The notes beneath the pieces were generated by a model that worked only from the letters and a program-made list of their open reading frames with translations, was not told where the DNA came from and made no database searches. From positions 1 through 64,000 of the IMG/VR virus record IMGVR_UViG_3300021371_000007: a DNA stretch of 64,000 nt; one strand, 5' to 3'. This document shows positions 468-61,275 of this stretch, one piece after another (position 1 is the stretch's first letter; the number at the start of each line of letters is the position of its first letter). Made by a program: the position numbers and the translations under genes. The stretch is from a virus.

Positions 468-3400
468 ATGCCATTTTTAGCAGCTATAAGCGCAGGATTT
501 GGGGCTAACATAATAAATAGTATTTCTAGTGTATTAGACTGGATTCAACATGCTAAATTAACGTCTTCAAATAATTCTGGTAATGATAAATTTGGAGAGA
601 AAGTAGCTATTGATGGTAATATTGCTGTAGTAGGCGCACCAAATTATGATACAGGTGGAGGAGTTAACAGTCCTAAGGGGGCTGCATATGTATTCACTCG
701 CTCAGGAGATACCTGGACTCAACAAGCCATGATACAGTCTAATGACATAGCCGTTGGAGATACCTTTGGTATTACAGTTGCTATTAGCGGTAACACTATT
801 ATTGTAGGTGCTGAGTATGAAGATGGCTCATCTTCTAGCGCAACAAACTATGGATCAGTATACGTTTTTACAGGATCAGGGTCTAGTTGGACTCAACAAG
901 CTAAATTAGGTGATCCTAACCCTAGTACTAACGATTGGTTTGGAAGTAAAAGTATAGCTATTAGCGGTAACACTATTGTTATAGGTAGTATTTATTCTGA
1001 TGATACCGCTACTAATTCAGGTACTGCTCATGTATATACTCGTTCGGGCTCAACGTGGACCTATAGAACACAGTTGGAAGCTAGTGATGCAGCACAAAGT
1101 GATAGATTTGGCGCGGGAGTACAAATAAACGGAAACACTATACTAGTAGGAGCCCATAGTGAAGGAGGTTCTGGAAATTCTAGAGGAGCAGTTTATGCTT
1201 TCACAGGCTCAGGTTCTAGTTGGACGCAACAAGCAAAGCTAACAGCTAGTGATGCTCAAGACTATGATTACTTTGGATATGGACTAGACCTAGATGGTGA
1301 TACTGCTGTAATAGGAGCTTTTGGAGAAGATAATATAGGAAGTAACTCAGGGTCCGCTTACGTGTTTACCAGATCAGGAACTACTTGGTCTCAGCAACAA
1401 AAATTAACCGCCTCTGATACGGCATTTGGTTATGATATAGGCCTCTCAGTAGCTATTGAAGGGAGTCTAATTGCTTTAGGAGCTAGAGGCGCAGATTCTG
1501 ATACAGGAGCGGTTTACATATTTAAGCTAGACGGAGGTACCTGGACAGAAGAACAAAAATTAATTTCCGATGAAGGTGCTGAGGATGACGATTTTGGTGA
1601 ATATATAAGCTTATCATCTGATTATATTATAGCATCTACAAAGGATGAGTCCGCCTTTATATTTAAGTATACTAAGCCTACCTACTCTGTAACAGTCCCT
1701 AGTAGTATAAATGAAGGATCGGCAGGAACTATAAACGTAGCTACAACTAATGTTACTGATAGTACTACTCTATATTATACTCTTACTAACTCTTCAGACT
1801 TTAGTGCTTCTAGTGGTAGTTTTACTATTAACTCTAATTCCGGCTCTTTTAATGTCACTCCAACGGCGGATAATACTACAGAAGGATCTGAAACGTTTCA
1901 AGTAGAAATTAGAATAGAAAGTACTAGCGGTACTATTGTAACTACTTCTAACTCTATAACGATAAATGATACTAGTACCGAATCTTATAGTATTATTCCA
2001 GCAGTGAACAATGTAAACGAAGGCAGTAGCCTAACTTTTAATGTAACCACAGCAGGAGTTGCAAACGGAACAACTTTATATTACACATTATCAAATTCAG
2101 GAGATTTTGCATCTTCATCAGGAAGCTTTACTATTAACAGCAATGCAGGATCATTTTCTGTTACCCCAACAGCAGATAACACTACAGAAGGCAGTGAAAC
2201 TTTTACTGTAAGTTTAAGAACGGGCAGTGTGTCAGGCACAGTAGTAGCAGTGTCAAGCTCTGTAACTATAAATGACACTAGTACTAGCCCTGTAAGTTGG
2301 TCGTCACCTACTGCAGCTGCTAAATTGCTAGCCTCTGATGCGCAAACTAGTGACAATTTTGGGCAATCTGTTTCTATATCTAATAATGGAACTATAGCTA
2401 TAGTAGGGTCCCCTAATGAAGACACAGGCGGTACAAGTACTGGAGCTGCTTATATATACTCTGTATCTGGAAGTACTTGGACACAACAGGCTAAAATACA
2501 AGCATCTGATAAGGCATCATATGATGCCTTTGGGTACTCTGTTTCTATTGACGGTGACGGAGATACTGCTATTGTAGGGGCGTATGCTGAAGATCCTAGT
2601 GGTATTACAGATGCAGGTTCTGCATACATATTTACCCGTTCAGGGTCTACATGGACTCAACAAGGTAAAATATATGCATCCGATAAAGCAAATTCAGACT
2701 ATTTTGGTAGAGGCGTTTCTATTTCTGGTGATGGGAATACAGTAGTAGTAAGCGCGCATCTTGAAGATCCTATAGGAGCTTCATTTGCTAATCAAGATGC
2801 TGGTTCTGCCTATATATTTACTAGATCAGGAACAAGTTGGTCACAACAGTCTAAACTACAAGCTTCTGATGCACAAGGGAGTGATAATTTCGGACAATCT
2901 GTTTCTATATCTAATGATGGGGATACAGTTATAGTGGGTGCATATAATGAAGACACAGGCGGTACAGATGCCGGAGCTGCATATATATACACTAGATCTG
3001 GAAGTACTTGGACACAACAGGCTAAAATACAAGCTTCTAATAAAGGAAGTAGTGATAGATTTGGGCAATCTGTTTCTATTGATAGTGATGGGGATACTGC
3101 TATAGTTGGTGCTGCATTCGAAGACACAGGAGGTAGTAGTGCTGGCTCTGCATACGTATTTACCCGATCAGGAACAAGCTGGAGTCAGCAAGCGCAAATA
3201 CAACCAACTAATGTTATTGCTGGTGATCTATTCGGTAGAAGCGTTTCTATTTCTGGTGACGGGAATACAGTCATAGGAAGCTCCTATGTAGAAGATACAG
3301 GGTTTACTAATGCTGGGTCTGCTTATATTTTCACTAGATCTGGAAGTACTTGGACTCAACAGTCTAAAATACAAGCTTATGACGCACAAGCTAGTGCTTA

Positions 3401-3518
3401 TTTTGGTCAACTTGTGAATATATCTAATGACGGCAACACAGCAATTATAGGTGCTAATAATACTGATAGTGGTAGCACATCAGCCGCTGGAGCAGCTTAT
3501 ATATATAAGCCATCTTAA
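468..3518 (+). CDS. FG-GAP beta-propeller / Calx-beta repeat protein (virion appendage candidate)
   Basis: This is a 1016-residue protein made of two blocks of FG-GAP-like repeats (about residues 25-400 and 610-1016) flanking two Calx-beta-like domains (about 405-505 and 506-610). The propeller repeats recur about every 50-60 residues with the pattern D-x-FG-x-S-V-x-I-(S/D)-G-(D/N)-G-x-x-x-x-VGA, then AYIFTRSGSTWTQQ. The Calx-beta units share the motif TADNTTEGSETF. Such modules bind calcium and often contact glycans or other surface ligands in known families. No signal peptide is evident and AGGGAG precedes the ATG at 468. Its place beside a fibre-like end and before the terminase suggests a host-recognition or adhesin-like virion protein (inference). 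The near-identical repeats invite recombination and copy-number change. Confidence 0.75.
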   Translation: MPFLAAISAGFGANIINSISSVLDWIQHAKLTSSNNSGNDKFGEKVAIDGNIAVVGAPNYDTGGGVNSPKGAAYVFTRSGDTWTQQAMIQSNDIAVGDTFGITVAISGNTIIVGAEYEDGSSSSATNYGSVYVFTGSGSSWTQQAKLGDPNPSTNDWFGSKSIAISGNTIVIGSIYSDDTATNSGTAHVYTRSGSTWTYRTQLEASDAAQSDRFGAGVQINGNTILVGAHSEGGSGNSRGAVYAFTGSGSSWTQQAKLTASDAQDYDYFGYGLDLDGDTAVIGAFGEDNIGSNSGSAYVFTRSGTTWSQQQKLTASDTAFGYDIGLSVAIEGSLIALGARGADSDTGAVYIFKLDGGTWTEEQKLISDEGAEDDDFGEYISLSSDYIIASTKDESAFIFKYTKPTYSVTVPSSINEGSAGTINVATTNVTDSTTLYYTLTNSSDFSASSGSFTINSNSGSFNVTPTADNTTEGSETFQVEIRIESTSGTIVTTSNSITINDTSTESYSIIPAVNNVNEGSSLTFNVTTAGVANGTTLYYTLSNSGDFASSSGSFTINSNAGSFSVTPTADNTTEGSETFTVSLRTGSVSGTVVAVSSSVTINDTSTSPVSWSSPTAAAKLLASDAQTSDNFGQSVSISNNGTIAIVGSPNEDTGGTSTGAAYIYSVSGSTWTQQAKIQASDKASYDAFGYSVSIDGDGDTAIVGAYAEDPSGITDAGSAYIFTRSGSTWTQQGKIYASDKANSDYFGRGVSISGDGNTVVVSAHLEDPIGASFANQDAGSAYIFTRSGTSWSQQSKLQASDAQGSDNFGQSVSISNDGDTVIVGAYNEDTGGTDAGAAYIYTRSGSTWTQQAKIQASNKGSSDRFGQSVSIDSDGDTAIVGAAFEDTGGSSAGSAYVFTRSGTSWSQQAQIQPTNVIAGDLFGRSVSISGDGNTVIGSSYVEDTGFTNAGSAYIFTRSGSTWTQQSKIQAYDAQASAYFGQLVNISNDGNTAIIGANNTDSGSTSAAGAAYIYKPS

Positions 3519-5482: not shown

Positions 5483-6764
5483 TTGGGTACGAGAAAAACT
5501 TAATCCTATTCAGCCCTATCTACAAAGTCAAGAACCTACAGTTCAGCCAGACAGCAATGTAGATTTTAGAGCTGCTTACGATCAAGTTGAGATAGTACAC
5601 AGATGCATAGAAATGATAGTCAACGCAGTAGTGGGTATACCCTTTGCAGTTGAACCCGGTAATCAAGGTGGTCCAGTTAAAAAAGTAAGTAAATTACTTA
5701 ATTCAAGGCCTAATCCTTTTGAAGATAGAACCAGATTTATGAGAAGAGCTGTAATGGATCTTTTATTAGATGGTAATGCTTTCTTCTATTATGATGGTAA
5801 TGATATGTATTTATTACCAGCTAACGATATAGAAATAGAAACAGATGCCAAGAGATTTGTAAAAGGCTATACTTATATGTTGTCAGGGGGTGAAACCGAA
5901 AATAGTTCAGGATTTCAGCCTTTTGCAAGCTCTACTCCTTACGCTTCTTCTGGCGGTTCTAAGAAAAAGCCTAAGCAAACTATTCATTTTGATTCTACAG
6001 AAGTTATACATATCAAAGATGATAATGATGAGAGTATATTTAGAGGAAAAAGTAGACTAAGATCTCTATCTGACCTTATAAATTTATATTATGCTTTGCT
6101 TAAGTTTCAAAGACAATTCTTTAAAAATAATGCTATACCTGGTGTTGTTTTAACTACAGATACCGTTCTTAGCTCAAAAGTGAAAGAACGGTTATTACAA
6201 AGCTGGCGAAACACATATACTACAATATTTGATGGAGCCAGAAATCCTGCCATATTAGATGGCGGATTAAAAATAGATAAGTTTAGTGACATAAACTTTC
6301 AAAATTTAGATTTTGAAAACAGTGTAGAACGATTGCAGCAAGATATGGCTAAATCTTTAGGAGTACCTTATACTCTATTAAAAAGTGGTAATAATGCTAA
6401 TATCTCTTCTAATCAAGTACTATTTTATGAGCACACTATTATTCCAATAGTTACTCAATTTACTAGTGCTTTTGAGCATCATTTTAACAGTGTTTCTATA
6501 AGACCCGAATTAGTATCTATACCTGCGCTACAACCAGACTTAAAATCTCAAGCGCAGTATTTTAGTTCTTTAGTTAATGCTGGTATTATTACTCCAGACG
6601 AAGCTAGAGAAAAACTTAATTTTCCTACTTTAGGATTAGATACTACTTCAGAAATTCGCATACCTCAGAATATCACAGGAAGTGCCACTAGTCCAGAGTT
6701 GGGCGGTAGACCTTCATCAGACGATACAGAAGATATGCCTATAACGGAGCCAACAAATGAGTGA
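5466..6764 (+). CDS. HK97-family portal protein
   Basis: This 432-residue protein forms the dodecameric ring at one capsid vertex through which DNA is packaged and to which the neck is attached. Features typical of the HK97 portal family are the N-terminal helix YDQVEIVHRCIEMIVNAV, an IIHIKD-like strand (here EVIHIKDDND), and the region RLQQDMAKSLGVPYTLL before the C-terminal clip and crown. A TTG at 5454 opens the frame, but the ATG at 5466 is preferred because GGAG lies 6-9 bases upstream of it inside the HNH gene. The C-terminus is Pro/Thr/Ser-rich and overlaps the next gene by 8 bases. Confidence 0.92.
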   Translation: MAGPISWVREKLNPIQPYLQSQEPTVQPDSNVDFRAAYDQVEIVHRCIEMIVNAVVGIPFAVEPGNQGGPVKKVSKLLNSRPNPFEDRTRFMRRAVMDLLLDGNAFFYYDGNDMYLLPANDIEIETDAKRFVKGYTYMLSGGETENSSGFQPFASSTPYASSGGSKKKPKQTIHFDSTEVIHIKDDNDESIFRGKSRLRSLSDLINLYYALLKFQRQFFKNNAIPGVVLTTDTVLSSKVKERLLQSWRNTYTTIFDGARNPAILDGGLKIDKFSDINFQNLDFENSVERLQQDMAKSLGVPYTLLKSGNNANISSNQVLFYEHTIIPIVTQFTSAFEHHFNSVSIRPELVSIPALQPDLKSQAQYFSSLVNAGIITPDEAREKLNFPTLGLDTTSEIRIPQNITGSATSPELGGRPSSDDTEDMPITEPTNE

Positions 6765-9471
6765 TAAAAAGTTTTATATCAATAGTGATAATATAGAAAT
6801 TAAATCAAAAACAGATAGTGCTAACAAGCCTTTTAAAATAGCTGGTTACGCTAATACTACATCAAAAGACAGAACTGGTGATGTAGTTTTATCAGAGGCA
6901 TGGGTTAAAGGCATAGAGAACTACAGAAAAAATCCTGTTTTACTCTATCAACATGATCATGGAAAGCCTATTGGTAAATCCGATACTGTAAGAGTAGACA
7001 AAAAAGGTATTTTTGTAGAAGCTTCAGTATCAAGTGCAGCTGAAAAACTACACGGAGTGCAATCTTTAATTGAAGATGGGGCGCTAAAAAGTTTTAGTGT
7101 AGGTTTCAGAGTAAAAGATGCAGATTATGATAGAACTGCAGATACTTTTGTAATTAAAGACCTAGAATTACTAGAGATTAGTGTGGTAAGTGTTCCCGCA
7201 AATCAAGAGTCTTTATTTAGTATCAGAAAAAGTTTCGAATCAGATGAAAGTTTTGAGTCTTTTAAGTCTCAATTCGAAAAAGAGGAGGAAGAAGTTTTGG
7301 AAGAAAAAACAACAGAAGAAACTGCAGTAGAAGAGTCTTTAGAAATTGAAGAAACTGTAGTAGAAGCTTCAGTACAAGAAGCTTCTGAAGACAAGTCTAT
7401 TGAAGAAAAAGATCTTGTTATAGACGAAGAAAAAGAAGCGGTTGAAGCAGAGGGATCTTATGAAGATCCTAATACTCTAATCCCTTTTTATAATATGCTA
7501 AGTACTGAGACTTCTCAGTTAGTTAATGGCGATTGTGTAAAAATGAAAGGCAATCGTTATAAAATTTCAAAAATTGCTACCGCCGAATCCCCATATTTCA
7601 TATTTAAAGAAATTGACATTAACGGGGTTTCAAGCGATAATACTATTAAGATTAATGCAGAAAATCTATCTGTAGTTAATGCTTGGGATCTTTCTACTAA
7701 ATTCGATATTGAAATCATCGACCATAGTGAAAGTAAGTCTTTAACAGATAAAGACAGAGAAGAAATTAAATCTAATTTCTCTGATCTTGTTAAAGCTTCC
7801 GAATTTAATCTTTTTGGCTTAAAACAAGAAGATAAAATTAAAAATAATGATCAGTATCAAACAACTTTAAACAACCTGTTAAATCTGAAAAGCATGGAAG
7901 CAGGAACTTGGAGTGATACTCACTATACGTTAGCAAAACGTTTTGTTAATACTATTAAAGCACTTATCGACCTTCCACAAGAAGAAGATAGAGATTTCGC
8001 ACTAAAACTATACGGTTATATTACCGAAAATAAGGAGAATAATGAGATGGCAACTCAAGATATTGGTGATCCCATCACTGTTGATACAAAAGCTGCAGGC
8101 ACCCAGGTTGTTGAAGAGAAAAAAGTTTCTAATCACGTTTCTGAGCCAGAAGTAGCAAAACTAGTCGAAAAGACTGGTGATAAAATCATGGAAGAATCAG
8201 AAGCTAAAATTAAAGCTAATAATGAAAACCATGAAGACTCTCGTTTAGCTGAAGAGCTTGCAGAGTTAAAAGGGCAAATGAAAGCCTACCGTGAGCAAAT
8301 TGACTCATACACAACTAGTAAAATGGTTTATCAAGAAAATACTCGTAGAAACGAGCAGTTTTCTCAGAAAGACCTATCTAACGCTTACTTTTTAGCTAAA
8401 GCTATGCGTAGAGACCCACTAAGCACTAAGTACGGCATGCGTATGAAAGATGTAGTACAAGGTGGTCAAGTAGATGCGTTTGAAAATGCATTTTCTACAA
8501 ACGTATATGAAGAAATGAGACAACAACTTGTTGTTGCTCCTTTGTTCAACCGCATCGAAGTTAACGCAAAACAGTTTTCAGTACCTGTTGCAAGCGAAGA
8601 CACAGATGACTCGATTGCTCAGTTTGAGTCCGGCACTTATGCCACAGACACAAACAACTATGTACCTGCCACAAATCAGCACGTACTAAAGAGCGTTGAC
8701 TTAACACCCCATAAATTTATGGTTAAGACACACATCGCAAAAGACGAAGAAGAAGATACACTACTTCCATTAGTAGACTTTTTACGTTCAGCAGCTACAC
8801 GTCGTTTAGCTCGCTTTACAGATAAAGTATTACTTCGTGGTAACGGTGGATTAACTGGCTTTGATGCTACTGAATCAATGTCAGCAGGTAGCACTACAGG
8901 AATAGGCGGAGTTGCTTCACCTATTACAGGTATTGTAAATCACGCTGGTGCAGTAGCCGCATTAAACGTATACAGAGGTGTAGGTTTAACAGGTGCTGCA
9001 GCTAATACAGCAACTGCTACTGCAGCTACTGTAGCTTCAGCTCGCGCAGCTATGGGCAAATATGGCTTAGCTATGGGAGACCAGTTAGTACTTCTTACTT
9101 CAGTAGAAGGTTATAATAACTTTGTAACTGAAACTGATTTCCAAACTGTAGATAAGTTTGGTCCTCAAGCTACCTACTTAACAGGCTCTATTGGTGCTAT
9201 TTATGGTATCCCAATTCAGATTTCTGAATTTATGGATTCTGTATCAGCAACAGCTAATAACCGTGTACTTGGTACTATGGTTTATAAGCCTGGATTCTTG
9301 ATTGGTGAGCGTCGTTCTATGGAAGTAGAAAGCGATTACCTTCCAGATCGCCAAGTTACAGCGCTTTATATGTCAACACGTTATGATATGAAAGCACTTA
9401 CAACAGAGTCAGCAGCTGCACTAAGCTCTTCTTACTCTTATGCTGTAAACATGTTAAGCGGTGCTGAGTAA
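6757..9471 (+). CDS. Prohead protease fused to major capsid protein
   Basis: A single 904-residue frame joins two head genes that are usually separate. Residues about 25-160 are an HK97-type (S78) prohead protease, with candidate catalytic His66/His68, Ser114 in KSFSVGF, and Glu140 in LLEISVVSVPAN. Residues about 165-225 are a very acidic Glu-rich linker, then come a small beta-rich domain (about 225-310) and a helical part. From about 430 the sequence is a capsid protein: a coiled-coil delta-like segment (about 495-530), then the HK97 fold with the E-loop region and a C-terminal end after SDYLPDRQV. An internal Shine-Dalgarno and ATG at 8047 suggest separate capsid synthesis. The 3' half uses CGT arginine codons unlike the 5' half. 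Confidence 0.9.
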   Translation: MSDKKFYINSDNIEIKSKTDSANKPFKIAGYANTTSKDRTGDVVLSEAWVKGIENYRKNPVLLYQHDHGKPIGKSDTVRVDKKGIFVEASVSSAAEKLHGVQSLIEDGALKSFSVGFRVKDADYDRTADTFVIKDLELLEISVVSVPANQESLFSIRKSFESDESFESFKSQFEKEEEEVLEEKTTEETAVEESLEIEETVVEASVQEASEDKSIEEKDLVIDEEKEAVEAEGSYEDPNTLIPFYNMLSTETSQLVNGDCVKMKGNRYKISKIATAESPYFIFKEIDINGVSSDNTIKINAENLSVVNAWDLSTKFDIEIIDHSESKSLTDKDREEIKSNFSDLVKASEFNLFGLKQEDKIKNNDQYQTTLNNLLNLKSMEAGTWSDTHYTLAKRFVNTIKALIDLPQEEDRDFALKLYGYITENKENNEMATQDIGDPITVDTKAAGTQVVEEKKVSNHVSEPEVAKLVEKTGDKIMEESEAKIKANNENHEDSRLAEELAELKGQMKAYREQIDSYTTSKMVYQENTRRNEQFSQKDLSNAYFLAKAMRRDPLSTKYGMRMKDVVQGGQVDAFENAFSTNVYEEMRQQLVVAPLFNRIEVNAKQFSVPVASEDTDDSIAQFESGTYATDTNNYVPATNQHVLKSVDLTPHKFMVKTHIAKDEEEDTLLPLVDFLRSAATRRLARFTDKVLLRGNGGLTGFDATESMSAGSTTGIGGVASPITGIVNHAGAVAALNVYRGVGLTGAAANTATATAATVASARAAMGKYGLAMGDQLVLLTSVEGYNNFVTETDFQTVDKFGPQATYLTGSIGAIYGIPIQISEFMDSVSATANNRVLGTMVYKPGFLIGERRSMEVESDYLPDRQVTALYMSTRYDMKALTTESAAALSSSYSYAVNMLSGAE
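8032..8049 (+). promoter_or_regulatory. Internal ribosome-binding site and start for the capsid protein
   Basis: AAGGAG at 8032-8037 is followed after 9 bases by ATG at 8047, in the same frame as the long gene (codon 431). Starting there gives a 474-residue capsid protein without the protease. A site this strong inside a coding region, together with a change to CGT-rich codon use just after it, supports independent high-level translation of the capsid. That the start is used is an inference. Confidence 0.65.
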
Positions 9472-9497
9472 TCAGTAACTACTTATAGTTAGCAAAG

Positions 9498-9540
9498 AAA
9501 AGGGGATGCGGGCTCCCAGCCCCATTCCCTTTTTATTTTT
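9498..9540 (+). terminator. Rho-independent terminator after the capsid gene
   Basis: A G+C-rich stem formed by AAAAGGGGATGCGGGCT against AGCCCCATTCCCTTTT (one wobble, one bulge, loop CCC) is followed by a T-rich tract. It lies 27 bases after the capsid stop and should limit readthrough of the abundant capsid message into the connector gene. Confidence 0.85.
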
Positions 9541-9553
9541 TAGGAGACAGTAA

Positions 9554-10819
9554 ATGTTAGTGACTCTATTAGAAATTAAAGAGTTTTTAAAAATAAAACT
9601 AGATAATGATAGTGAAGATAGCAGATTAAGATCTATAAATTCGTATGTATCTAGTTTAATAGAATCTTACTGTGGCAGAGTAATATCTTCAGGTAATTAT
9701 ACAGAATATTTTAACGGAGGAGTTTCCTCTGTTTTTATTAAGAATCCTCCTATTAACTCTGTACATGAAGTTTCTCACTATACTGGAAATTCTTATACTA
9801 CTTTAGGTGGGCCAGGTTCTTTAGGACAACAAATAGAAATAGAAGGCTCTTCACACAAAATTACTTCTTTAGGTAATGCTAAAACTAGTAAAAGAGTTAA
9901 ACAATTTGGCATTTCTAGCCTACATTTAGCTGAGGCAGGAGACTACTTATCAGTAAGCAGTTCTGATGATTTTAATTTAGGTACTGAACCCTTTACTATA
10001 GAGCTTTTCATACGCCCTGCAAACTTAAATAATTCTACTTTTATATCTAGAAATGATAATGATAATGATAACTGGGAGCTTTCATATGATTCTAGCAATG
10101 GTGTATTTTTTAGAGCAAAAAGTGATGACATAGAAACAGCTTATATATCCGGCACTACTGTGTCTGTAAATACTTTTACTCATATAGCAGTAGTTAAAGA
10201 AGATACACAATTAAAGATATATCAAAATGGAAATCAAGTAGGGTCTTCAGTAGCTCATGCTAATTCAATTCCTAATTTATCTTCCTCTTTAGAAGTAGGA
10301 AGAATATCTCAAACAGATAATAAAAACTTCATTGGGTATATAGATGATATAAGAGTTTCTTGGAATGCTAAATACTCGAGTAATTTTAGTACGTCTTTAC
10401 AAGCTGCAGCATCTGACGAGGATACTAAATTATTAATTCCTTTTAACGAAGGCGCTAATAAAACAGATATAACTGACTTTTCTAGAAAAGTAAATGAGTA
10501 TGTGTGGTACCCTGATACGGGTGAGGTTAGTTTTGACTCTGGGATGGGTAGTGGCTCCCCTAGTTTAGGATTTTTTAATCCTAGAAAATTTAATAATTTT
10601 ACTAATGGAGTTAGAGTTACTTACAACGGGGGTTATGCTTCTGTTCCTAATGACTTAAAACTAGCTTCGTTAGAGATGATAAAAGTTCTCTATAAAGGAA
10701 GAGAGGGAGCAAAAAGCGTATCTCTTCAAGGAGATAATTCTTCTTCTCATGACTTAAGTTTAGATGGTTTTCCTCCTCAAGTTAGAAGAGTTTTAAATCT
10801 TTATAGGCTGCCCATGTAA
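9554..10819 (+). CDS. Head-tail connector (gp6-like) with inserted LamG-like domain
   Basis: The first 80 or so residues (LLEIKEFLKI, SSLIESYCGR, FIKNPPINSV) and the last 110 (VRVTYNGGY, PNDLKLASLEMIKVLY) match the layout of HK97 gp6-type head-tail connector proteins. Between them, about residues 118-310, lies a beta-sandwich segment of the laminin G/concanavalin type: FTIELFIRP, FTHIAVVKE, LKIYQNGNQVGS and IDDIRVSW are its hallmark strands. The connector binds the portal ring at the neck. The insert would project from the neck and may bind sugars. Length is 421 residues against about 100-200 for plain connectors. TAGGAGACAG precedes the ATG. Confidence 0.75.
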   Translation: MLVTLLEIKEFLKIKLDNDSEDSRLRSINSYVSSLIESYCGRVISSGNYTEYFNGGVSSVFIKNPPINSVHEVSHYTGNSYTTLGGPGSLGQQIEIEGSSHKITSLGNAKTSKRVKQFGISSLHLAEAGDYLSVSSSDDFNLGTEPFTIELFIRPANLNNSTFISRNDNDNDNWELSYDSSNGVFFRAKSDDIETAYISGTTVSVNTFTHIAVVKEDTQLKIYQNGNQVGSSVAHANSIPNLSSSLEVGRISQTDNKNFIGYIDDIRVSWNAKYSSNFSTSLQAAASDEDTKLLIPFNEGANKTDITDFSRKVNEYVWYPDTGEVSFDSGMGSGSPSLGFFNPRKFNNFTNGVRVTYNGGYASVPNDLKLASLEMIKVLYKGREGAKSVSLQGDNSSSHDLSLDGFPPQVRRVLNLYRLPM

Positions 10820-12812: not shown

Positions 12813-14105
12813 ATGCCCAATTGCGGTCCTAATACACAGATTAACCTTCAGAGAAACACTGAAGTTTTTTGGTCAACTATTGACTTGAATGGCGGAGGCG
12901 TATCGGCTTCAATGACGCCTGACAACACTTGGAGAGTAGAAGTTTTAGCTGGTTATGCTTTTAACCAGAGTGCTACTAACCAAGATATTACTACTTTAGA
13001 ATCAGGTAATACACCTGACAGAGCTACACAAAGATTTAACACTTCAGTTAACCCAGTAGAATGGAGCATGAGTACTTATGTCCGTCCTACAGGGATGATA
13101 ACTACTGATGGTCAAGACTCGCCCACAGGTAATTCTAAACCAGTATCAGACTGGTTCTTATGGCAGTCTATGCTATCAAATAATGCTCCAGCGGCAGCAG
13201 GAGTAGAGACTAGTTCTTGGGAAAATAATGGTATTTTTCACTTAGGACATAGAGGCTTTGGCGATAATGCTGATGTAGTTGCAGCTTCCAATGCTAATGT
13301 TACTGCTCACAGCTCTAACTTCCCAACCATGAAAGAGTATTCACTTTACTTTAAAGTGGATAACGTAGTATATCAAGTTGGTCAAGCAGCGGTTAACGAA
13401 GGATCTATTGACGCAGCTATTGATTCAATTGCTACTACTTCTTGGAGTGGTTTTGGTACTAACTTGTTTGAACTAACAGGAGGCACCAGAGACGAGGCTA
13501 TTGCAGTATTTGGAGGCACATTAAACGACGGTTCTACAGCAGCAGCTAATAGTTCTACTGATGTAGGAAATTCAGCAACTCAATCTTACCATCCATTTGG
13601 TACTTCTAAAGTAGCTGGTTCTGATATATCATCAGCGTTTATTAAGAATAGATTAAGTTCTATTGCAGTAACATCGTCTGCTTCTGGAGCATCAAAAGCT
13701 TATACATTCCCAGTAACTGGGTTAAGCTGGGGATACAACAACAACGCTTCTTATTTAACACCAGAAGAATTAGCGTCACTTAACTCACCTATTGGTCAGT
13801 TTACAGGTGCTAAATCAGTAACAGGTAGCTTTACTGCGTATTTACGTGCAGGAGCAAACCAATCTGCTGAGTTCTTAAAAGATATTGTTACTAACACCGC
13901 GGTGCAAACTAAAGGTGCAAGTGCTAACCTACAAATCGGTGGTACAACAGCTCCTTACTTTGCGGTAAATATGCCGTCAGTACAATTTGACTTCCCATCA
14001 CACTCAATTGATGATGTTGTGGGTATTACAGTTGATTTCTTAGCACAAGAGACAGATCCTACTTGTGGTGACGAATTCACATTCTTTGTTAGCTCAACTA
14101 GCTAA
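12813..14105 (+). CDS. Major tail tube protein
   Basis: The protein has 430 residues with a strong ribosome site (AAGGAG, 8 bases before the ATG). Composition is rich in Thr, Ser, Ala and Asn with beta strands, and the gene lies directly between tail terminator and tail-assembly chaperone, which is the normal place for the tube subunit. Codon choice (CGT, GGT, AAC) resembles that of the capsid gene, fitting very high expression. The length is larger than simple tube proteins (about 150-250), so an additional Ig-like or decoration domain is likely, probably in the middle. Four early Met/Pro/Cys residues (MPNCGP) are not a lipobox. Confidence 0.8.
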   Translation: MPNCGPNTQINLQRNTEVFWSTIDLNGGGVSASMTPDNTWRVEVLAGYAFNQSATNQDITTLESGNTPDRATQRFNTSVNPVEWSMSTYVRPTGMITTDGQDSPTGNSKPVSDWFLWQSMLSNNAPAAAGVETSSWENNGIFHLGHRGFGDNADVVAASNANVTAHSSNFPTMKEYSLYFKVDNVVYQVGQAAVNEGSIDAAIDSIATTSWSGFGTNLFELTGGTRDEAIAVFGGTLNDGSTAAANSSTDVGNSATQSYHPFGTSKVAGSDISSAFIKNRLSSIAVTSSASGASKAYTFPVTGLSWGYNNNASYLTPEELASLNSPIGQFTGAKSVTGSFTAYLRAGANQSAEFLKDIVTNTAVQTKGASANLQIGGTTAPYFAVNMPSVQFDFPSHSIDDVVGITVDFLAQETDPTCGDEFTFFVSSTS

Positions 14106-14116
14106 TAAAAATTAAA

Positions 14117-14148
14117 AAATTCATGAAAGTTGAGGGGTTCATGAATTT
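14117..14148 (+). repeat. Perfect hairpin 1 after the tail tube gene
   Basis: AAATTCATGAA (14117-14127) and TTCATGAATTT (14138-14148) form an 11-bp perfect stem with the 10-base loop AGTTGAGGGG. It lacks a T-run, so it is not a normal terminator. The loop bases TGAGGGG (14131-14137) are complementary to CCCCTCA in the loop of the next hairpin (14191-14197). Confidence 0.8.
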
Positions 14149-14159
14149 ATTATCACTAG

Positions 14160-14233
14160 GAGACAGCTATTCTTAGCAAGCAGCAAACATCCCCTCACTT
14201 GTTGTACGTTAGATCGAATAGCTGTCTCTTTTT
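14160..14233 (+). terminator. Terminator-like long-loop hairpin before the chaperone gene
   Basis: GAGACAGCTATTC (14160-14172) pairs perfectly with GAATAGCTGTCTC (14216-14228), 13 bp, followed by TTTTT. The loop is unusually long (43 bases) and contains ATCCCCTC at 14189-14196. That sequence is complementary both to the loop of hairpin 1 and, over 8 bases, to the chaperone ribosome site at 14245-14252. It may lower downstream transcription and also control translation. Confidence 0.75.
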
Positions 14234-14244
14234 AACTTAATATA

Positions 14245-14252
14245 GAGGGGAT
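14245..14252 (+). promoter_or_regulatory. Chaperone Shine-Dalgarno site complementary to upstream loop
   Basis: GAGGGGAT lies 7 bases before the ATG at 14260 and contains the ribosome site GAGGGG. It is an exact 8-base complement of the loop sequence at 14189-14196, so pairing would form a pseudoknot that hides the site. Confidence 0.6.
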
Positions 14253-14259
14253 AAATCCT

Positions 14260-14691
14260 ATGAGTATGATTAAAAATTTAATGATTAACGAAAAAGTTGT
14301 CGAAGTGGAATTTCCAGATAGCGATAATTTTTATGTTAGCTTAACTTATTTAAACAGAGAAAAATTAACAAAAATTAGAAATAGATCTTTAACTATCAAA
14401 TTTAACAAACGTTCTCGCCAAAGAGAAGAAGAAGTAGATAACGAAAAGTTTCTCGAAGAATATGCTAGAGAAGTTGTTAGAGGTTGGAGAGGTCTTACAA
14501 TCAGAGAATTAGCAAGGCTAATGCCTATTGAGACTGCTGGAGCTAACTTAGAGCAAGAAGTTCCGTATTCAGAAGAAGACGCGCTAGAGCTTTTACGAAA
14601 CTCTACTATCTTTGATCAGTTTGTCACAGACTGTCAGAATGATTTCGAAGTCTTTGAGAAAGATAAGACAGACTCACAAGTAAAAAACTAA
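14260..14691 (+). CDS. Tail assembly chaperone (lambda gpG equivalent)
   Basis: The protein has 143 residues and lies between tail tube and tape measure genes, the place of lambda gpG. It is charged and helical with no catalytic motif, as for this family of tape-measure chaperones. The gene ends in GTA AAA AAC TAA; the heptamer A-AAA-AAC (14682-14688) is a classical -1 slippery site just before the stop, so a share of ribosomes should continue into the next frame to give the longer GT form. In known siphoviruses the G:GT ratio matters for tail assembly. Translation may be controlled by the RNA element upstream. Confidence 0.85.
   Translation: MSMIKNLMINEKVVEVEFPDSDNFYVSLTYLNREKLTKIRNRSLTIKFNKRSRQREEEVDNEKFLEEYAREVVRGWRGLTIRELARLMPIETAGANLEQEVPYSEEDALELLRNSTIFDQFVTDCQNDFEVFEKDKTDSQVKN
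14682..14688 (+). promoter_or_regulatory. -1 programmed frameshift site (A AAA AAC)
   Basis: The heptamer has the X-XXY-YYZ pattern in the zero frame of the chaperone gene, one codon before its TAA. After slipping, reading resumes at C14688 with CTA AGA CGC TAC and is open to 15056. Confidence 0.88.
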
Positions 14692-60579: not shown

Positions 60580-61275
60580 TTAGGCTTCTAAAGCTTTTGG
60601 AGTATAATCTGTTGCAGAAATTCCGCGACGAGTTAACACAGTTTTAACACCGCGCTCACTTTTGCCAAATTGATCTGCTAACTCTGCAACACTCATACTG
60701 GTTGCCATATCTTCAATTCCTTCATAGGAATCGCTCTTAGCTGCTTTTTTATCACGCTGAGGTGCTTTAAGCTGCATAGAAAGAAGTTTTCCGCGAACGG
60801 AGTTTACAGATTTGCCAAGGGCTTCTGCAATATCTTCTAAGAAAGCGCCCGAACCCGCCATATCAGAAATCTGAGCTTCTTCCGCCTCTGAATAGGTGCG
60901 TGGAGCTACTTTTTTCTCAGCCGGTTTAATATGAGCTGTCATTTCTAATGAAAGAGCCTTACCGTTAACTTGACGAGAAGTTACGTCACGACCCCACTCA
61001 GCACTAAAGTGAGTTGCAATTTCTTCCGCAGTGTGTACACCGCTATTGCTTTCTAGAAATGATGTTAAAGCGGCTGTTTCGTCTGCATCAAATGCAGGAG
61101 CTGCTTTAGGTTTTGTTGGAACGTCGTAACCAAGTTTACGAAGTTTCGCAGTTACAGAGCGACGTGGAAAGTCAAACTCATCGCAAAGAGCGATAATAGT
61201 ATCTTCCGTAATGCCGCCTGCACATACTTGCTCCATACGAGCAACCATGTCTTCAGTATATTCAAATTTTGCCAT
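60580..61275 (-). CDS. Abundant-type DNA-binding protein with four HTH-like modules
   Basis: The 231-residue protein consists of four related helical units of about 45-50 residues, each ending in an HTH-like turn: SVTAKLRKLGYD (near 45), SRQVNGKALSLE (near 105), SVNSVRGKLLSMQL (near 160) and SERGVKTVLTRRGIS (near 212). It has its own promoter, a GAGGGG ribosome site and a strong terminator. Codon choice (CGT, GCT, GGT) and a higher G+C content resemble the capsid gene, so very high expression is expected. A nucleoid-like or global regulatory protein is likely. Confidence 0.7.
   Translation of the reverse strand: MAKFEYTEDMVARMEQVCAGGITEDTIIALCDEFDFPRRSVTAKLRKLGYDVPTKPKAAPAFDADETAALTSFLESNSGVHTAEEIATHFSAEWGRDVTSRQVNGKALSLEMTAHIKPAEKKVAPRTYSEAEEAQISDMAGSGAFLEDIAEALGKSVNSVRGKLLSMQLKAPQRDKKAAKSDSYEGIEDMATSMSVAELADQFGKSERGVKTVLTRRGISATDYTPKALEA

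Follow-up and report, generated by a model that had tools for sequence, protein, structure and literature searches.

Two kissing hairpins conserved between the tail tube and tail chaperone genes of uncultured, mostly aquatic phages

The window analysed here is the whole 64,000-nucleotide stretch from position 1 to 64,000 of the IMG/VR virus record IMGVR_UViG_3300021371_000007. It contains a T5-like tail module, in which the gene for the tail tube is followed by two chaperone frames and then by a 4420-aa tape measure frame. The tube protein shares about 27–30% identity with T5-like major tail proteins (tblastn). Between the tube and chaperone genes lies a gap of 154 nt that houses two hairpins (P1 and P2), each with a short motif in its loop (L1 and L2, respectively). 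The features of this region, in window coordinates, are as follows.

12813–14105, plus strand: tail tube (major tail) protein gene, 430 aa (PHROG phrog_3575, major tail protein, E 3e-52).
14117–14148, plus strand: hairpin P1, an 11-bp stem (arms 14117–14127 and 14138–14148) with a 10-nt loop, beginning 11 nt past the tube stop codon.
14131–14137, plus strand: L1, TGAGGGG in the P1 loop, which pairs with L2; GAGGGG is present in all relatives.
14159–14229, plus strand: hairpin P2 as folded, with outer (14159–14172/14216–14229), middle (14173–14177/14208–14212) and inner (14180–14186/14199–14205) stems.
14189–14197, plus strand: L2, ATCCCCTCA in the P2 loop, with either L1 or the chaperone ribosome site as potential pairing partner.
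14230–14237, plus strand: U-rich stretch 3' of P2, terminator-like in the window (UUUUU) and variable among relatives.
14245–14252, plus strand: chaperone ribosome site, GAGGGGAT, complementary to L2 and 7 bases 5' of the ATG at 14260.
14260–14691, plus strand: tail assembly chaperone gene, first frame, 143 aa (PHROG phrog_313, Tail assembly chaperone, E 4e-11).
14682–14688, plus strand: AAAAAAC slippery heptamer just 5' of the first-frame stop, where a -1 shift into the second chaperone frame is presumed to occur.
To 15056: second chaperone frame (phrog_3914, tail assembly chaperone, E 4e-18).

The heptamer AAAAAAC, followed by TAA or TAG, closes the first chaperone frame in 77 of 99 distinct relatives. 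The clade of L128 and L149 has no stop at this position and its first frame runs 13 residues further, apparently ending in sequences like GGGGGGA-TGA, which may also be slippery; in L066, both chaperone frames form a single 259-aa frame without a frameshift, representing either a true fusion or a sequence error. Elsewhere in the window, a single 904-aa frame (6757–9471) codes for both the head protease and the major capsid protein, the head-tail adaptor-like protein (9554–10819) carries a large insert that resembles domains from virion structural proteins, those of the baseplate wedge included, and a 1016-aa protein rich in FG-GAP repeats (468–3518) adjoins the terminase gene.

Both hairpins and their loop motifs lie where an earlier sequence-only reading of the window had placed them. 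That reading described two perfect hairpins, which holds for P1; P2 is perfect only over its outer stem of 14 bp; further in, a bulge of 3 nt leads to a 5-bp helix, which a 2x2 internal loop separates from the last 7 bp. The fold of the region beats each of 200 dinucleotide shuffles (z -3.74). As had also been claimed, L2 is exactly complementary to L1 over 7 bp and to the ribosome site over 8 bp, and the two pairings are mutually exclusive because both use the same C-run of L2. Predicted energies in the window favour ribosome-site pairing (-15.6 kcal/mol) over kissing of the two loops (-13.3 kcal/mol). The order is reversed in L005, a relative 97% identical to the window (ribosome site -12.9, kissing -15.7), and likewise in nearly all other relatives.

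Relatives were gathered by chaperone and tube protein searches, which recovered well over 200 loci from viral contigs and from two contigs of one SAR86 metagenome-assembled genome. Given that many of these loci overlap or are near-identical, distinct elements are the preferred count: a program delimited 99 from 212 loci, and in six further loci beyond its distance limit the motifs were found by inspection. The P1/L1 and P2/L2 motifs are present in every locus whose chaperone gene is preceded by 120 nt or more of sequence. Representative elements have a mean identity of 62% (minimum 48%), and the CCCCTC of L2 is invariant in all 47 of them. The regions have thus diverged, yet GAGGGG, CCCCTC and the stems are constant, which therefore points to selection; a chance origin is ruled out by conservation in 99 distinct relatives. 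The carriers of the element are a large group of uncultured, mostly aquatic phages. In 14 records, a covariance model detects one strong copy per genome (E about 1e-13 or better), located at the tube-chaperone junction, and genome scans including this model found no second strong copy elsewhere in the genome. The model also found no element in five whole T5-like genomes. In the closest cultured relatives, which are T5-like (L205–L209, L334, L335), a minor tail protein gene stands between the tube and chaperone genes with almost no gaps, whereas in the window's group the RNA element occupies that position. When viral contigs were scanned for the pattern GAGGGG..CCCCTC..GAGGGG, the non-chaperone sites among the matches listed looked chance-like, falling in G+C-rich or repetitive DNA.

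The stems covary strongly. RNAalifold, applied to 47 sequences, predicts the outer and middle stems of P2, with double compensatory changes at 15 of 16 pairs; in the outer stem, all 12 of 12 pairs have changed on both sides. Across the P2 stems and kissing pairs together, 95.2% of cells are paired, as compared with 80.0% in shuffled alignments and 40–52% when the structure is slid. The arms of P1 form 9.0 bp with their own partners and 5.3 bp when swapped between relatives (0 of 5000 permutations as good). MAFFT misplaced L1 in four of the 47 rows, and kissing statistics were therefore also computed on anchored motifs.

The proposal that the two loops kiss is supported both by complementarity, which extends over 6–13 bp in every relative found, and by covariation between L1 and its own L2. 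Own partners match better than swapped ones in 46 representatives (0 of 5000 permutations as good) and across 23 clades below 80% protein identity (6 of 5000 by length, 0 of 5000 by score). Duplex energies are -17.3 for own and -15.9 for swapped pairs. The invariant core of the kissing pairing is uninformative on covariation, and the signal comes from the flanking positions. The first pair after the core is mostly GC, GU or AU, and none of all 91 rows combines a non-G with C there; the next (columns 27–89) is AU in 12 cases, UA in nine, CG in five, GC in two and unpaired in 14. A stricter, tree-based count over six pairs gives about four changes in the same way and none opposite; with so few independent changes it falls short of significance (p 0.06–0.25). 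The two hairpins, their kissing pairing and their strict conservation are established by sequence comparison.

Pairing of L2 with the chaperone ribosome site, by which the sequence-only reading had the chaperone gene masked, fares less evenly. In its favour, a GAGGGG ribosome site is enriched at the chaperone gene, preceding 53 of 80 chaperone starts as compared with 3 of 316 other starts, and one of these three is the element's own L1 in L078. The GAGGGG state has undergone at least seven changes on the chaperone tree. In most relatives, both pairings of L2 remain at 6 bp or more, with 6–8 bp possible between L2 and the ribosome site. Against masking as a general feature, own ribosome sites match L2 no better than swapped ones (4777 of 5000 permutations as good; 2350 of 5000 by energy), and two clades have weakened or lost the match: the L214–L242 clade has GAGAGG as its ribosome site, which forms only 4 bp with L2, and the L266 clade has GAGG, which forms 5–6 bp. 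Kissing nevertheless persists at 7–11 bp in both. No relative found that keeps the genes has lost the kissing pairing, while ribosome-site pairing is refuted as a universal feature. Even L005 lacks the 8-bp match of the window and has 6 bp. Speaking for a role of this pairing, L236 retains an 8-bp match in a different register, with AGGGGG as its ribosome site. The linker between P2 and the ribosome site is only 7–9 nt long in several lineages, as compared with about 24 bp for P2, and GAGGGG is nonetheless kept there; judging from helix dimensions, a cis pseudoknot between L2 and the ribosome site with P2 intact looks sterically strained where the linker is about 7 nt. Separately, a gene at 61275 on the minus strand of the window, with a weak match to sigma-70 region 4, starts after CAGAGGGGAATAAAAATG; GAGGGG ribosome sites away from the chaperone gene are very few in the genome, and this one would also complement L2.

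The element is a real cis-acting RNA family, apparently undescribed, and is very probably a control element. The reading that we tentatively favour, and which may be correct, is that it acts in cis to set chaperone expression relative to the tube; kissing would be its conserved core, to which masking of the ribosome site would be added in some lineages. P1 and P2 would be held together by kissing between L1 (GAGGGG) and L2 (CCCCUC), in a position between the stop codon of the tube gene, whose protein is abundant, and the ribosome site of the chaperone, of which few copies are needed. The default state is likely the kissing complex, which would occupy the anti-ribosome-site sequence of L2. P1 starts about 0–14 nt after the tube stop and the GAGGGG of L1 lies 8–26 nt after it; this closeness, which in many lineages would bring a terminating ribosome into contact with P1, is the basis for a proposed coupling of tube and chaperone translation. 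A ribosome completing the tube gene would be expected to disturb P1. Where the ribosome site matches L2, the freed L2 would then hide the chaperone start and hold the tube-to-chaperone ratio at a high level. Where a clade has no such match, the kissing fold must work differently, for example as a rigid barrier between both cistrons. The output would likely be the amount of chaperone, and of the tape measure behind it, relative to the tube. In the window's own lineage, an exclusive two-state switch is plausible. A bolder form of the favoured reading appears unlikely, namely that these phages carry a new class of RNA switch in which ribosomes ending one structural gene break the kissing, the anti-ribosome-site loop shuts the next gene and tube translation thereby sets the ratio.

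The strongest alternative is that the element stabilises the 3' end of the tube mRNA, or serves as an RNase III type processing site or a partial terminator, without acting directly on the chaperone ribosome site. This is a possible though doubtful explanation. P2 is a long, nearly perfect helix of about 24 bp with an asymmetric bulge, compatible with the form of an RNase III site, for which a helix containing an internal loop and spanning some 20 bp or more is expected, and kissing adds rigidity. The first 8 bases 3' of P2 contain from two or three to seven T among relatives, many of which are U-rich here, and in phage Corndog a stem-loop to the right of the major tail gene is a predicted terminator (PMC4351075). 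A strong simple hairpin, terminator-like in the window, also follows the major capsid gene, in the gap before its downstream neighbour (9495–9540), and each of the 15 relatives checked has a counterpart in this gap, in many cases lacking a U-run. Hairpins after genes for abundant structural proteins are thus common in these phages; the kissing pair and the matching ribosome site are what set the tube-chaperone junction apart. Stabilisation, processing or termination would leave unexplained the near-invariance of L1 and L2, the covariation at the loop edges and the GAGGGG ribosome site. Furthermore, the U-run after P2 is missing in several lineages (L009, L066, L110, L252, L306 and others), and owing to this variation an intrinsic terminator is rejected as a general conserved function, including the weak terminator suggested in the sequence-only reading. 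The idea that the element promotes frameshifting or readthrough at the tube stop was likewise dropped on inspection, as no common slippery sequence was seen and the length of the element differs between relatives.

It is improbable that the kissing complex is instead recognised by a protein of the phage or its host, such as the tube protein or the chaperone acting as a translational repressor. Strictly conserved loop letters and a fixed two-hairpin geometry beside a ribosome site would suit such a role, for which the autogenous repression of T4 gene 32 provides a precedent (PMC535899), but base pairing already accounts for the conservation of the loops and no candidate protein emerged. Least probable of all is a strict two-state switch in all these phages, in which L2 pairs with either L1 or the ribosome site: the exclusive complementarities are real in the window, and both reach at least 6 bp in most relatives, but the loss or weakening of ribosome-site pairing in two clades, its lack of covariation and the short linkers refute such a switch as universal.

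Control of chaperone expression relative to the tube, as favoured here, would bear on a general requirement of long-tailed phages, in which tube, chaperone and tape measure are encoded side by side in one operon but required in very different quantities. How these ratios are set ahead of the well-known chaperone frameshift is largely open, and the element is conserved at exactly that junction across highly diverged phages. It also appears to represent a new family of structured RNAs, in which a kissing complex that occurs naturally within one molecule extends to as much as 13 bp. The element is also small enough for a plasmid reporter and makes sharp predictions, with single loop mutations expected to harm and double compensatory ones to rescue.

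A scan of the 64-kb window against Rfam 15 at the gathering cut-off returned only a tRNA, and relaxing the threshold to E<=10 around the element gave nothing credible and no match to mini-ykkC. No description of such an element was found in the open-licence literature. In the repZ/repA pseudoknot switch of IncI, IncB and IncL plasmids (ColIb-P9), a loop forms a long-range pairing close to the ribosome site of the next gene. Translation of an upstream frame alters which pairing forms, and the switch also includes a short leader peptide and an antisense RNA. The upstream frame of the phage element is a full structural gene, the tail tube, rather than a short leader peptide. Corndog mycobacteriophages carry a terminator-like stem-loop after the major tail gene, with a simple 12-bp stem and a T-rich tail (PMC4351075); its position in the operon is that of the element, though a second hairpin, a kissing loop and a conserved loop motif are not described. 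The leader of T4 gene 32 contains a pseudoknot upstream of a phage ribosome site that is bound by gp32 (PMC535899), and thus differs as a single protein-bound pseudoknot from the two kissing hairpins described here. A further likeness, in architecture only, is to the guanidine-II riboswitch (mini-ykkC), in which the loops of two linked hairpins kiss near a ribosome site and the kissing is proposed to free the downstream Shine-Dalgarno site (PMC9300104). Membership of this class is excluded, given that the loops contain GAGGGG and CCCCUC in all relatives instead of ACGR and there is no Rfam match. Whereas the guanidine-II riboswitch has its anti-Shine-Dalgarno sequence in the linker, kisses through two GC pairs of its ACGR loops and binds guanidinium, the phage element pairs its loops over 6–13 bp, shows no ligand loop and lies inside a phage late operon.
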